Shown piece after piece: positions 4,251 through 25,552 of a DNA stretch of 51,692 nt. Position 1 is the first letter of the stretch; each line of letters starts with the position of its first letter. A program made the translations under genes and the position numbers. Below the pieces are notes generated by a model. The model was given only the letters and a program-made list of their open reading frames with translations, had not been told where the DNA came from and searched no databases. Source of the stretch: Pontibacterium sinense (lineage in GTDB: Bacteria; Pseudomonadota; Gammaproteobacteria; Pseudomonadales; Balneatricaceae); the NCBI RefSeq assembly GCF_015209595.1, contig NZ_JADEYS010000029.1, forward strand, positions 1-51,692, in the 5' to 3' direction.

Positions 4251-4433
4251 TTAGTCGCCCCATGAAAAGAAACAGCTAATTCCCAGCACGCCCCATACCG
4301 TTACGCAGATCCAGTACAAACCTGGCTGAACGTCACGATATACGAAGTCCCACAACAGCGTGTAACCCGCATAAATATCCCAGGCAACCCACCCCAGTAA
4401 TAACACACCCACGGTAAACCAGAACGATCTCAT
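4251..4433 (-). CDS. Tiny two-segment membrane protein, paralogue of the one at 23925-24173
   Basis: Sixty residues, mostly hydrophobic, with membrane segments at about 5-20 and 38-55 joined by a short polar loop. The ATG follows GAGAG on the minus strand. From residue ~12 it aligns without gaps to the protein at 23925-24173: by hand I count 15 identities in 41 positions, including LLxWV, DI, G, P-x-LYW and W-x3-GI. No known family was recognised. Two TTGTCA-type operator elements lie directly upstream (4449-4509), matching the arrangement in front of the radical SAM operon that carries the paralogue. It is transcribed away from the aminotransferase gene. Confidence 0.7.
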   Translation of the reverse strand: MRSFWFTVGVLLLGWVAWDIYAGYTLLWDFVYRDVQPGLYWICVTVWGVLGISCFFSWGD

Positions 4434-4448
4434 TAAACGACTCTCTTG

Positions 4449-4509
4449 TTTATTGTCAGTGTTGGTAGTTTATTATCAAATATTATTTATTGTCAATATT
4501 GATCATAAA
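4449..4509 (-). promoter_or_regulatory. Paired TTGTCA-type operators upstream of the tiny membrane protein
   Basis: Element 1 begins TTTATTGTCA at 4449 and element 2 begins TTTATTGTCA at 4486; they match at 15 of 20 positions and are 37 bp apart. Element 2 is also a palindrome (TTTAT, TCAATATTGA core, ATAAA; 4486-4509). Read on the minus strand it contains a perfect TTGACA -35 hexamer. Element 1 would then lie near the transcription start, the usual layout for repression. Confidence 0.6.
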
Positions 4510-4681
4510 CTAATAACGGTCGCCCCGATGTTTACTCTGAGAGCCTTTTGAAAAACTGTTACGTAAGTAAATGCTTAAGGTAAGTTCAATACGTTTGAAT
4601 TTAACAACCTATCAGTCAGTCCATAATGGATCGCATGTACTTGATCCTCGCTTTACAGCTACAAACCTTATGAGGTGGCAG

Positions 4682-6028
4682 ATGAATAATAAAAATGATG
4701 ACCTGTCTTTATGCGGATTGTCACAAGACCAGTTAGATGCTCACTGGATGCCATTTACCGGCAACCGTGATTTTAAGCAAGACCCGCGCATGATTGTTTC
4801 CGCAGAGGGTAATTATTACACCGCTGCGGACGGTCGTAAGATTTTTGATGGCCTGTGTGGTCTATGGACCTGTGGTGCTGGTCACAGCCGCCCGGAAATT
4901 ACCGAAGCGGTCAGCAAGCAGGTTAAAGAGCTGGATTACTCGCCAGCGTTCCAGTTTGGTCACCCAAAATCTTTCGAATTGGCCCACCGCATTACGGAGT
5001 TTATGCCGCAAGGTTTAAACCGTGTGTTCTTCACCGGTTCCGGTTCTGAATCGGTTGAAACTGCGTTGAAGATTGCCCGTGCGTACTGGCGCAAGAAAGG
5101 TCAGGGCAGCAAAACGCGCCTGATCGGTCGCGCTAAGGGGTATCACGGTGTGAACTACGGCGGTATCAGTGTGGGTGGTATTGGTCCTAACCGTGCTATT
5201 TACGGACCGGGCATCGATGCAATCCATCTGCCGCACACCCTGTTGCCAGAGAATAAGTTCGTGCAGGGTATGCCGGAAACCGGCGTGTATCTGGCCGATG
5301 ATCTGGAAGATCTGATCGCCACCCACGATGCCTCAAATATCGCGGCAGTGATCGTAGAGCCAATGGCCGGTTCTGCGGGTGTGATTCCGCCACCGGTGGG
5401 TTATCTGAAGCGTTTGCGTGAACTGTGCGACAAGCACAACATTCTGCTGATCTTTGATGAGGTGATCACTGCATTTGGTCGTGTGGGTTCTAAGACCGGC
5501 GCTGAAGAGTTTGGTGTGACCCCGGATCTGATGACCATTGCAAAACAGATGACCAACGGTGTGATTCCGATGGGTGCAACCATCGCCAAGCAGGAAATTT
5601 ACGACACCTTCATGGAAACCGGTGGTCCGGATTACATGCTGGAGTTGCCACACGGTTATACCTATTCCGCGCATCCTGTTGCGTGTGCGGCGGGTCTGGC
5701 ATCGCTGGATATTCTGGAAAACGACAAGCTGATCGAGCGTGTGAACGCGGTATCGCCTCAGTTCCAGGAGATGTTGCACAGCCTGAAAGGTACGAAATAC
5801 GTATCGGATATTCGTAACTACGGTTTGGCCGGCGCATTAAGCATCGAAGCCGCACCGGGTGAGCCAGCACTGCGTCCCTATCAGATTGCGATGAAGTGTT
5901 GGGAGAAAGGTTTCTATGTTCGTTATGGCGGCGACACCATTCAGCTGGGTCTGCCGTTCACCGTTGAGATTGAAGAGATCGACAGCCTGATTAATGCGCT
6001 GGGCGACTCCATCAACGAACTGGATTAA
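4682..6028 (+). CDS. bauA: Beta-alanine (omega-amino acid):pyruvate aminotransferase
   Basis: A 448-residue class III PLP aminotransferase that moves the amino group of beta-alanine to pyruvate, giving malonate semialdehyde and alanine. The start is ATG 4682, behind GAGG; the longer frame from 4571 adds 37 residues with no ribosome site and does not match family length. Visible features are the phosphate-binding GSGSES (119-124), the PLP-contacting IFDEV (Asp259) and the Schiff-base lysine in AKQMTNG (Lys288). The semialdehyde dehydrogenase gene follows after 91 bp, reproducing the beta-alanine catabolic pair known in Pseudomonas. Related enzymes accept other omega-amino acids, so substrate range is inferred. 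Confidence 0.85.
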   Translation: MNNKNDDLSLCGLSQDQLDAHWMPFTGNRDFKQDPRMIVSAEGNYYTAADGRKIFDGLCGLWTCGAGHSRPEITEAVSKQVKELDYSPAFQFGHPKSFELAHRITEFMPQGLNRVFFTGSGSESVETALKIARAYWRKKGQGSKTRLIGRAKGYHGVNYGGISVGGIGPNRAIYGPGIDAIHLPHTLLPENKFVQGMPETGVYLADDLEDLIATHDASNIAAVIVEPMAGSAGVIPPPVGYLKRLRELCDKHNILLIFDEVITAFGRVGSKTGAEEFGVTPDLMTIAKQMTNGVIPMGATIAKQEIYDTFMETGGPDYMLELPHGYTYSAHPVACAAGLASLDILENDKLIERVNAVSPQFQEMLHSLKGTKYVSDIRNYGLAGALSIEAAPGEPALRPYQIAMKCWEKGFYVRYGGDTIQLGLPFTVEIEEIDSLINALGDSINELD

Positions 6029-6119
6029 TTAAATAACGTACTGACGCATCACCGTCAGCCTGCTGGTCTCTTTTTGCGAATAGGGGCCAGCACACAATAA
6101 GAAAGCTCGAGGAAACATT

Positions 6120-7610
6120 ATGACTATGATTGGCCACCTGATCGACGGCGCAATGCGCGATGACGCAGCCCGCATGCAGGACGTATACAACCCATCTACC
6201 GGTGCTGTGAGCAAGCAGGTTGCGCTGGCATCCGTTGAAACTGTAGAAGAAGCGATTGCGGCTGCAGAACGTGCGTTCCCGGCTTGGCGTGACACGCCGC
6301 CAGCGAAACGTGCGCAGGTGATGTTCCGTTTTAAAGCCCTGCTGGATGCGAATAAAGACAAGATCTGCGAGATGATCGGCGAAGAACACGGCAAGATCTC
6401 TCACGATGCTGCGGGTGAACTGCTGCGTGGTATCGAAAATGTTGAGTACGCATGTGGTGCGCCAGAACTGCTGAAAGGTGAGCACAGCCGTAATGTAGGT
6501 CCGGGTATCGATTCCTGGAGTGAGTTCCAGCCACTGGGTGTGGTTGCAGGCATTACGCCGTTCAACTTCCCGGCTATGGTGCCGCTTTGGATGTACCCAA
6601 TGGCGATCGTATGCGGTAACACCTTCGTGCTGAAACCGTCTGAGCGTGATCCATCTTCAACCCTGTTTATTGCGCAGTTGTTGCAGGAAGCGGGTTTGCC
6701 AAACGGTGTTATCAATGTCGTAAACGGCGACAAAGAAGCGGTTGATGTGCTGCTGAGCGACGATCGTGTTAAAGCGGTGAGCTTCGTTGGTTCTACGCCA
6801 ATTGCGGAATACATCTACAGCACGGCGAATGCTAACGGCAAACGTTGTCAGGCACTGGGTGGCGCTAAAAACCACGCGATCGTTATGCCGGATGCGGATA
6901 TGGATAACGCTGTTAACCAGTTGCTGGGTGCTGCGTTTGGTTCCTCCGGTGAGCGTTGCATGGCGCTGTCTGTAGCAGTTGCTGTTGGTGATGAAGCTGC
7001 TGACACGCTGGTTGCGAAAATGCGTGAAGCTATGCAGCCGCTGAAAGTGGGTGCGTACAGCAACCGCGAGAACGACTTTGGTCCTGTGATCACTCGTGCA
7101 CACCAGCAGAAAGTTAACGGTTACATCGACAGCGCAGAAGCTGACGGCGCGACGGTTGTCGTTGATGGTCGTAACCCTCAAGTTGAAGGCTATGAAGACG
7201 GTTTCTTCGTCGGTGCTACCTTGATCGACGGTGTCACTTCTGAGATGCAGAGCTATCAGGAAGAGATCTTTGGCCCTGTATTGCAGGTTGTCCGTGCGAA
7301 CAGCATGGAAGAAGCGATGCAGCTGATTAACGATCACGAATACGGCAACGGTACCTGCATCTTCACCCGTGACGGCGAAGCGGCGCGTTACTTCTCTGAT
7401 CACATTCAGGTTGGCATGGTCGGCATCAACGTACCGCTGCCAGTGCCAGTGTCTTACCACAGCTTCGGTGGTTGGAAGCGTTCTTTGTTTGGTGACCTGC
7501 ATGCTTACGGTCCTGATGCGGTACGTTTCTACACCAAGCGTAAAACAATCACCCAGCGCTGGCCTTCCAGCGGTGTGCGTGAAGGGGTTTCTTTCGCATT
7601 CCCAAGCTAA
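6120..7610 (+). CDS. mmsA: CoA-acylating malonate/methylmalonate-semialdehyde dehydrogenase
   Basis: A 496-residue ALDH6-family enzyme. It oxidises malonate semialdehyde (or methylmalonate semialdehyde) with NAD and CoA to acetyl-CoA (or propionyl-CoA). The catalytic cysteine is Cys280 in GSSGERC. The general-base glutamate of ordinary aldehyde dehydrogenases is replaced by Asn251 in GGAKNHAIV, the hallmark of the CoA-dependent subfamily. ATG 6120 follows GAGGAAAC. Lying directly behind the omega-aminotransferase, it probably completes beta-alanine degradation (the role called BauC in Pseudomonas); a function in valine catabolism is the alternative. No valine-pathway neighbours are present. 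Confidence 0.9.
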   Translation: MTMIGHLIDGAMRDDAARMQDVYNPSTGAVSKQVALASVETVEEAIAAAERAFPAWRDTPPAKRAQVMFRFKALLDANKDKICEMIGEEHGKISHDAAGELLRGIENVEYACGAPELLKGEHSRNVGPGIDSWSEFQPLGVVAGITPFNFPAMVPLWMYPMAIVCGNTFVLKPSERDPSSTLFIAQLLQEAGLPNGVINVVNGDKEAVDVLLSDDRVKAVSFVGSTPIAEYIYSTANANGKRCQALGGAKNHAIVMPDADMDNAVNQLLGAAFGSSGERCMALSVAVAVGDEAADTLVAKMREAMQPLKVGAYSNRENDFGPVITRAHQQKVNGYIDSAEADGATVVVDGRNPQVEGYEDGFFVGATLIDGVTSEMQSYQEEIFGPVLQVVRANSMEEAMQLINDHEYGNGTCIFTRDGEAARYFSDHIQVGMVGINVPLPVPVSYHSFGGWKRSLFGDLHAYGPDAVRFYTKRKTITQRWPSSGVREGVSFAFPS

Positions 7611-23924: not shown

Positions 23925-24173
23925 TTATTGAAGCAGAGTGGGTGTCGGATTCAGCAAATAGATGCCAAAGAAAATCCAGGTTACGATCACCAGCCAATAC
24001 AAGACTGGATCTCTATGTTTACTGAGATTCTCAAAAAAGTGTGTCTGGCCGCTTCGGATATCGGGTATGACCCATGCCAGCAATATGATCCCCAACACCC
24101 ACGGGAGATTGAACCAGAACGATATGTGCATCGCACCGATTGCAGATATTGCTTTCCACTTTATGTTGTTCAC
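23925..24173 (-). CDS. Small membrane protein, paralogue of 4251-4433
   Basis: Eighty-two residues starting at GTG 24173, five bases behind a CGGAGG box. Two clear membrane segments (about 22-36 and 59-74) are joined by a polar loop rich in K, H and R. The loop and second segment match the 60-residue protein at 4251-4433 without gaps (15 of 41 identical by hand). It starts 19 bp after the stop of the radical SAM gene and so belongs to that transcript, whose promoter carries the paired TTGTCA operators. Function unknown; a partner or anchor for the radical SAM product pathway is possible. Confidence 0.75.
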   Translation of the reverse strand: MNNIKWKAISAIGAMHISFWFNLPWVLGIILLAWVIPDIRSGQTHFFENLSKHRDPVLYWLVIVTWIFFGIYLLNPTPTLLQ

Positions 24174-24192: not shown

Positions 24193-25434
24193 TCACATAT
24201 AGGAAGAGTTAATCCAGCCCAGGTTTCGTGCTTTCGTAAAGCGGCGTTTTAGGCCACGTCCAAGAGAGTTATAGTGTTCGTGGAACCAGTTCAGCCCGTC
24301 TTCCAGTTCATGAGCGGTCATCTGATTGGGTACAAACACTGCGTTTGTGCCGTCATAGCGTGACCAGTCCTGATGCAATATGCGATTCTGCTCGTTCAAT
24401 TGGTTATACAGCAAAGTACCTGGGTACGGAGTGACGATCACTGAATGGCAAACATCCAGTTCGACATCGTCTACAAACGCTAATGTCTCTTCAAATATGT
24501 CAGGGGAATGTTCGTCAAAACCAAAGAGCATAGCCGAGTCCACTGCAATACCGTACTCGTGCAGTTTACGGATATAGTCTTTTGTCCTGTCTACCCGAAT
24601 GAACCCCTTTCCTGCCGCTTTAAGTGCTGCATGGGATGGCGTCTCTATGCCGGATAAAAGGTAGAACAGTCCGCTTTCAGCTGCGGCCTCCAGAAGGTCG
24701 TCGTGTTCCGCAATGTTGATGGTTGCTTCCGCGAGCCATTGAATGTTCAGCGGCTTCAGGGCTTCAAATAATTCGAAAGCAAATTCCCGGTCAGCTACCA
24801 AATTGTCTGCGTGTAGCTCAATGTATTCGAGCCCGGAGCTACGAATTTCGTCAACAATCTGCCCGACGGGGCGTGTACGGAATTCGTGAAAGAAGCGATG
24901 CACGGTGCAGTAACTGCAATGAAACTTACAGCCCCTGGATACGACCACAGATCCCAGCCCTTGATAGGGGGCTAAATCCATATACTCATGCGGATAGCGA
25001 TGAAGTTTCGCAAGATCTGAAGGGCTGGATTGTTCGTATTTCGCCTGCAATCTACCCTGTTCGAAATCATCCAGCAGATGGGGCCAAATGGCCTCTGCTT
25101 CCCCGATCAGCACCGCATCACTGTGTATCAGTGCTTCGTCAGGCAAAAATGATGCATGGAGGCCGCCAAATACGACGCTGATATTTTGCGCGCGATAGCG
25201 ATCGGCCAACTCATAGCCCCGCATTGCATCGGGCGTTGACATAAATATAGCGACCAGATCGCTCTCCAGCTTGATAGGAGCCGGCTTGTCAGAGGTTTCG
25301 TCGATGATGTCTAACTCAATATATTCAGGTGTGGCTGCGGCAAGGGAATAGACGCTTTGTGGCGGGGCGCCCATGTATGCTTTGTAGTCTTTAAATGCTC
25401 CTGATGCGGAGGCTTTTATTAAAGTCACCTTCAT
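24193..25434 (-). CDS. B12-binding-domain radical SAM protein
   Basis: A 413-residue cytoplasmic protein. Residues ~1-135 form a cobalamin-binding-like domain (VVFGGLHASFLPDEA landmark) without the DxHxxG motif, as in BchE-type proteins. Residues ~160-350 form a radical SAM barrel with CxxxCxxC at Cys169, Cys173 and Cys176. Such proteins methylate, cyclise or rearrange unactivated carbons, often in lipids, hopanoids, porphyrins or natural products. ATG 25434 follows AGAGAG; the frame continues to a TTG at 25455. It shares its promoter region with a divergent ABC membrane-domain gene and its transcript with a small membrane protein. Confidence 0.88.
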   Translation of the reverse strand: MKVTLIKASASGAFKDYKAYMGAPPQSVYSLAAATPEYIELDIIDETSDKPAPIKLESDLVAIFMSTPDAMRGYELADRYRAQNISVVFGGLHASFLPDEALIHSDAVLIGEAEAIWPHLLDDFEQGRLQAKYEQSSPSDLAKLHRYPHEYMDLAPYQGLGSVVVSRGCKFHCSYCTVHRFFHEFRTRPVGQIVDEIRSSGLEYIELHADNLVADREFAFELFEALKPLNIQWLAEATINIAEHDDLLEAAAESGLFYLLSGIETPSHAALKAAGKGFIRVDRTKDYIRKLHEYGIAVDSAMLFGFDEHSPDIFEETLAFVDDVELDVCHSVIVTPYPGTLLYNQLNEQNRILHQDWSRYDGTNAVFVPNQMTAHELEDGLNWFHEHYNSLGRGLKRRFTKARNLGWINSSYM

Positions 25435-25491
25435 TGCTAAATCTCTCTGTACCAAGACTAGAGCCGTGTCTTAAATGGATTGCTCTAAATG

Positions 25492-25552
25492 CTGTCAACA
25501 TTGACAATTTAAGGTGAAGTTATATAAATTGTCAAAAATGACAACTTATATA
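25492..25552. promoter_or_regulatory. Divergent promoters bounded by two TTGTCA-type operators
   Basis: Operator 1 is TGTCAACATTGACA (25493-25506). Operator 2 is TTGTCA-A4-TGACAA (25529-25544), extended by AT-rich arms to a 32-bp palindrome with one mismatch (25521-25552). Their half-sites start 37 bp apart. The minus-strand promoter reads TTGACA (inside operator 2), 17-bp spacer, TTAAAT. The plus-strand promoter reads TTGACA 25501-25506 (inside operator 1), 16-bp spacer, TATAAA 25523-25528. One regulator could therefore block both directions. Confidence 0.75.

Follow-up and report, generated by a model that had tools for sequence, protein, structure and literature searches.

The window (the whole stretch of 51,692 nt that was analysed) contains two pairs of short palindromes, one upstream of a gene for a small membrane protein (MP1) and the other between a radical SAM gene and a divergent ABC transporter gene. 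The sequence-only reading placed TTGTCA half-sites at 4453 and 4490 and (C/T)TGTCA half-sites at 25492 and 25529, and the 37 bp offset that it reported was confirmed at both loci. A further pair lies on contig C14 of the window's own genome (G000; 4,637,155 bases, or 4.64 Mb). The features concerned are:

4251–4433, minus strand: MP1, an ORF of 60 aa; two-helix membrane protein, homologous to MP2 and MP3
4453–4468, no strand: predicted proximal operator of MP1, TTGTCAGTGTTGGTAG, half-degenerate, 10/12; kept in genome G004 and perfect in G003
4467–4496, minus strand: predicted promoter of MP1, TTGACA (4496–4491), 18 bp, TAAACT (4472–4467); consensus match only
4490–4505, no strand: predicted distal operator of MP1, TTGTCAATATTGATCA, 10/12; contains the −35 box
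23925–24173, minus strand: MP2, an ORF of 82 aa downstream of the radical SAM gene; homologous to MP1
24193–25455, minus strand: radical SAM gene (Radical_SAM 54.5 bits, cut-off 29.5); the start is perhaps an internal ATG near 25434
25492–25507, no strand: predicted operator O1 of the radical SAM/ABC promoter, CTGTCAACATTGACAA, one of five perfect palindromes in the genome
25501–25530, plus strand: predicted mirror-image promoter of the ABC gene, TTGACA, 18 bp, TAAATT; consensus match only
25506–25535, minus strand: predicted promoter of the radical SAM-MP2 operon, TTGACA, 18 bp, TAAATT; consensus match only
25529–25544, no strand: predicted operator O2 of the radical SAM/ABC promoter, TTGTCAAAAATGACAA, one of five perfect palindromes in the genome
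25581–26453, plus strand: ABC transporter membrane-region gene, 290 aa (PF13748, 218 bits, cut-off 27)
G000:C14:85586–86182, outside the window: TetR-type regulator gene, 199 aa; preceded by the third pair

When each site is scored by its matches to the 12 specified bases of YTGTCA-N4-TGACAR (pair maximum 24), the sites at 25492 and 25529 reach 12/12 each, and those at 4453 and 4490 reach 10/12 each. Pairs scoring at least 20/24 at exactly 37 bp occur twice in the window, and none of 200 first-order Markov resamplings gave any. Single TTGTCA hexamers are not enriched in the window (33 found vs 35.5 expected) and were dropped as a signal in their own right. Genome-wide, four of the five exact palindromes form two pairs at exactly 37 bp, at 25492/25529 of the window and at C14:86202/86239. 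The fifth (C23:224229) falls within a coding ORF that looks murF-like by eye, and was taken as a chance occurrence. A relaxed pair pattern (up to one mismatch) is found at exactly three places in G000, namely C14:86202 and window positions 4453 and 25492, while a reversed control pattern has no match in G000 and one each in genomes G001 and G011. The genome scan thus returned three places rather than hundreds, and the two-locus regulon proposed earlier has to be enlarged: both window loci do share the paired sites, but the set in the genome comprises three operons. The third pair is found upstream of the TetR-type regulator gene (tetR), 19 bp from its start codon.

The distal element was also said to overlap a minus-strand TTGACA −35 box at each locus, and this was borne out (TTGACA-18-TAAACT at 4496–4467, TTGACA-18-TAAATT at 25535–25506). 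Promoter-like matches taken alone are near chance, with 2 against 1.3 ± 1.0 expected in the scan for the MP1 promoter and 2 against 0.6 ± 0.9 in that of the radical SAM/ABC region. The same layout, TTGACA-18-TAAACT/TAAATT, is present in all four gene directions of G000 (tetR, MP1, radical SAM and ABC), and at 25492/25529 two identical, opposed predicted promoters overlie the same two operators. The −10 element in G000 ends 2 bp within the proximal palindrome, so that this palindrome would cover the inferred transcription start. In 31 of 34 hand-picked aligned promoters, oriented by the controlled gene and counted by eye, the distal palindrome ends in TTGACA; the remaining three are those of G005, of L084 (its near twin) and of L149. 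Such regularity is what would be seen if the pairs were mere promoter elements (TTGACA and its neighbours) with no regulator involved. Against this, the other half of each palindrome is conserved though it is no promoter element, and the pattern occurs at three places in the genome whereas sigma-70-like promoters are common, making this explanation very improbable indeed. Given the predicted promoters, the 37 bp offset is a consequence of promoter layout, corresponding to the distance from −35 box to start, since the distal palindrome provides the former and the proximal one covers the latter. The spacing is 35–37 bp in the window's family and drifts from 33 to 38 bp across other lineages.

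The 199-aa regulator matches TetR_N with 20.2 bits (E 5e-4), below the Pfam cut-off of 24, and its homologue at locus L060 scores 25.5 bits, above that cut-off. Its predicted structure is all-helical, with nine helices (mean pLDDT 91.9), and the best Foldseek matches of the model are TetR-type regulators, DNA-bound EilR among them, with TM scores to the query of 0.63–0.76 in the top ten. The nearest solved protein by sequence is RcdA (5x5i, E 1.5e-7). None of the NCBIfam equivalogs fits; the best is the choline-responsive BetI, an identity that was rejected at 36.6 bits against a cut-off of 201.3.

Searching 37 relatives with the regulator protein gave matches in 22 (E up to 0.001), and 30 tetR-like loci were fetched from relatives and scanned for pairs. 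All seven full-length loci of at least 60% identity have one, with a spacing of 35–37. The tetR of G005 (32% identity) has a pair at 36 bp, that of G036 (34%) has none, and the other 21 loci have none, one of these being a contig-edge fragment (L041). In tetR loci with pairs, the recognition helix reads R[SP]xxR[HY]xxGN. Among the 30 protein-found loci, which give the unbiased count because many other loci with this motif were found via the operator, a pair is present in eight of nine with the motif and in 0 of 21 without it, showing that the helix motif goes with the operator. A profile search of the family, using protein only, recovered 23 tetR genes in 22 of 116 genomes. All 23 have the palindromic operators upstream of their own gene, as in G000, at 35–37 bp and with scores of 20–24 of 24; when each upstream region was shuffled 100 times, the best score never exceeded 19/24. 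Together with the resampling and the rarity of the pattern in the genome, these 23 loci rule out a chance origin of the pairs. At class level, tetR was found in 2 of 370 genomes, a count that may be low as at most eight candidates were scored per genome, and the second of these (L228) has no pair. Because it misses variants, the exact double pattern turned up in no more than 3 of the order's 293 genomes (reversed control 0 throughout), and the searches therefore started from the protein.

Conservation of the pairs in related genomes, whose absence had been named as a refutation, was found within the genus as well. G004 has all three pairs as in G000, G003 has two (at tetR and at MP1), and G002 lacks tetR, the small protein, a radical SAM orthologue and any 37 bp pair. 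An observation apart concerns L041 (G004:C298:2–172), where a second tetR fragment and a small membrane protein lie at a contig edge; this is perhaps a strain duplicate, G004 having 500 contigs and a contamination value of 6. Further afield, the whole genomes of Neptunomonas, Parendozoicomonas, Leisingera and Ruegeria contain one exact pair each, at tetR, and that of G018 contains no exact pair, its tetR pair being degenerate. A plasmid search with the Leisingera protein gave two full-length matches, both in Ruegeria, and each plasmid stretch has one perfect pair (38 bp) upstream of a DUF2141-tetR operon, in the gene order DUF2141-tetR-hypothetical-SRPBCC protein-reductase.

Species genomes were also scanned by DNA alone for two exact palindromes with 19–24 bases between the five-base cores, which returned at least 118 stretches. 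Among the matches listed, 37 of 118 have a tetR homologue (at least 80 bits) no more than 1 kb from the pair, or 34 of 115 after dropping three genomes already in the tetR profile (L073, L125, L151); one of the 118, L056, shows no pair on re-scanning. The small protein is near the pair in 28 of the 118 listed, and tetR together with the small protein in 26. Only L110 and L135 among them have the small protein without tetR; L110 corresponds to 4453/4490 in G003, where the operators are perfect, and L135 to the radical SAM region in G004, and neither is independent of those genomes (identical 200-base stretch). Exact pairs adjoined by neither tetR nor genes of the L110/L135 type make up 79 of the 118 matches listed. 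Of the 37 listed stretches linked to tetR, 22 have a spacing of 34 bp. The holders of pairs among these matches include Neptunomonas, Marinobacterium, Parendozoicomonas, Ruegeria, Phaeobacter, Leisingera, Shimia and Aliiroseovarius, along with the marine gammaproteobacterium HTCC2143 and a Planctomycetaceae MAG.

A different regulator, for example a Crp/Fnr-type or second TetR protein, might bind the pairs and count tetR as one of its targets. Two loci fit this, L026 (G036) and L228 (G430), where the helix motif is present and no pair lies upstream. It is nevertheless distinctly unlikely, because pairs accompany this tetR at every family locus, tetR also lies by the pair in distant groups (the 37 of 118 listed), G002 is without both, and the four further genomes have their single exact pair at tetR. 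The third pair at tetR, the 23 family pairs, the absence of both from G002 and a relative that has the genes in one cluster (G018, below) instead argue that the single regulator postulated for the two window loci is very probably this TetR-type protein, acting as an autoregulated repressor. That one regulator serves both loci is supported by the rarity and conservation of the pairs, and by their presence at all three small-protein operons.

MP1 is predicted to form a two-helix hairpin (helices 2–22 and 37–56, mean pLDDT 91). It was held to belong to the same family as MP2, and the two share 20 of 54 residues (E 8e-11, single comparison). The third member, MP3, is a 59-aa membrane protein whose gene start is overlapped by tetR on C14. 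A search of G000 with MP3 found itself, MP1 and MP2, and no others; all three detected paralogues sit in pair-bearing operons. MP1 and MP2 have no NCBIfam match and, in Pfam, nothing but one spurious sub-threshold match. The gene set varies, as G005 has tetR and the pair while its small protein is not detectable. In G017 and G019 (L218, L219) the Rieske and small-protein genes adjoin, by eye, a different divergent TetR-like gene, which suggests that the small protein is linked with the enzymes and not with this repressor; at these loci it looks as if the regulator had been exchanged.

The pair upstream of MP1, with both palindromes at 10/12, could have decayed, in which case control would be limited to tetR and the radical SAM/ABC locus. 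This is unlikely, as the degenerate outer halves of the pair recur in tetR promoters elsewhere (TGATCA in that of L247, CTACCA in that of L236), and the orthologous gene keeps the pair in G004, and in perfect form in G003, although the surrounding intergenic DNA differs. For these reasons the 4453/4490 pair is probably live. MP1 is adjoined at 4571–7610 by an omega-aminotransferase gene, after which comes another long ORF of like orientation, a neighbourhood kept in G003 (L110). The aminotransferase ORF (4571–6028, plus strand) matches the AptA model with 710 bits (cut-off 500), and the promoter scan at 4453/4490 found no plus-strand promoter for it.

At the second locus, the N-terminus of the radical SAM protein is weakly B12-binding-like (22.7 bits, below the cut-off of 32.1), and identities with BchE (96.7 of 481 bits) and HpnJ (95.7 of 578) were rejected. 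The ABC gene matches in its membrane region only, no ATPase domain being matched across its 290 residues. The tetR operon of G000 consists of tetR, MP3, a 222-aa protein and a gene of the fatty acid (FA) hydroxylase superfamily (PF04116, 93.6 bits, cut-off 31). DUF1800, DUF1501 and Rieske oxygenase genes come next on the same strand (L226, G000:C14:79469–84792), and may belong to the operon. The 222-aa protein matched no Pfam family; its G018 homologue is GyrI-like (29.1 bits, cut-off 26). In G018 a single cluster, tetR-MP3-p205-FA hydroxylase-radical SAM-MP2 with the ABC gene divergent, unites two loci that are separate in the window's organism. The Parendozoicomonas locus combines tetR and a split small-protein frame with genes for FA hydroxylase, DUF2141 and radical SAM. 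A Rieske oxygenase gene is divergent from tetR in Neptunomonas, G001 and G024, and probably in G011 (L125, by eye), and Ruegeria locus L075 reads tetR-MP-Rieske-p162-reductase. The solved chain nearest to the Neptunomonas Rieske protein is carnitine monooxygenase.

Taken together, it is highly probable that a single TetR-type repressor, encoded on C14 and autoregulated, uses the paired palindromes as its operators and switches three operons. Sequence-level support comes from the operators themselves, their rarity, their co-occurrence with tetR, the conserved neighbourhoods and the helix motif that accompanies the operator. A repressor dimer would bind each TGTCA-N4-TGACA palindrome, the distal one containing the controlled gene's −35 box and the proximal one lying over the transcription start, and RNA polymerase would be kept out because the occupied operators cover both. 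At the radical SAM/ABC locus, where the two promoters face opposite ways over both operators, each operator would therefore act as the −35 box of one promoter and the start block of the other. The repressor would be released by an inducer, perhaps a small molecule of hydrophobic or amphipathic character, which would turn on together the tetR-MP3-membrane protein-FA-hydroxylase-type operon, the radical SAM-MP2 operon with the divergent ABC gene, and MP1.

Local regulons under a TetR-type protein are a familiar sort of system, and here the operator signature is unusually clear. In Tn10 tet, regulator and target are divergently arranged. Repression is the likely mode here because the predicted operators lie over −35 and start, as in the Tn10 tet operon. 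That operon likewise has one autoregulating TetR-type repressor, two operators (tetO1/tetO2) and overlapping promoters of regulator and target (PMC3037858). The present system differs in having three operons, another operator sequence, spacing and set of targets, a −35 box in each palindrome and no gene for antibiotic efflux. RcdA (YbjK) of E. coli, besides being the closest solved protein, has a box beginning with TTGT between rcdA and a divergent gene. That box, as given in PMC3535384, is TTGTnnACA rather than TTGTCA-N4-TGACAA, and RcdA acts on genes of biofilm formation and stress instead of on oxygenases. Rv3160c is similar in arrangement, being a TetR-like repressor on an inverted repeat before a putative Rieske oxygenase gene, but PMC7810876 describes nested repeats of 12 bp and 8 bp, in contrast to two separate palindromes here. 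BetI, although the top NCBIfam model for the regulator, falls far below its cut-off. The literature searched contained neither the motif strings, regulator and pathway nor the combinations of genes, an absence that holds for those searches.

The regulon would constitute a membrane-associated module for oxidative modification or degradation, with the two-helix proteins as accessory parts. It is the enzyme types that suggest both the hydrophobic ligand and the oxidative membrane pathway. A more tentative reading, which may well prove wrong, is that of a sparse but wide undescribed regulon in which one TetR-type repressor, set apart by its recognition helix R[SP]xxR[HY]xxGN, uses operator pairs that double as the −35 boxes of mirror-image promoters, and which controls a new membrane oxidative pathway with the small proteins, a new two-helix family, as accessory subunits, split in the window's genus over three operons with one small protein each. 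Members of the pathway could then possibly be the FA-hydroxylase-type enzyme, the Rieske oxygenase, the radical SAM enzyme, DUF2141 and the GyrI-like binder. What was an orphan motif thereby becomes a circuit open to testing, with a named candidate repressor, a defined operator and a short list of targets. It ties together radical SAM, FA-hydroxylase-type and Rieske enzymes, and gives a first functional context to small membrane proteins outside all Pfam and NCBIfam families. The two opposed promoters over common operators would be a compact natural design, and one that is measurable.

Some distant tetR genes with the same paired operators adjoin a hydrolase-like gene (L154, L126, L105, L115, L168 and L071); that of L154 matches Beta-lactamase (PF00144), and the other five are alike by eye. 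Lactococcus hircilactis (L057, L076, L111, L112, L119) has several unrelated pairs on dispersed palindromes resembling TGTCAGTACTGACA. The Myxococcales MAG UBA2376 (L059, L062, L065, L068, L129, L143, L161) carries many near-identical inverted repeats of the form TGTCAACTTTGACAA...TTGTCAAAGTTGACA, which are perhaps mobile or terminator-like elements.
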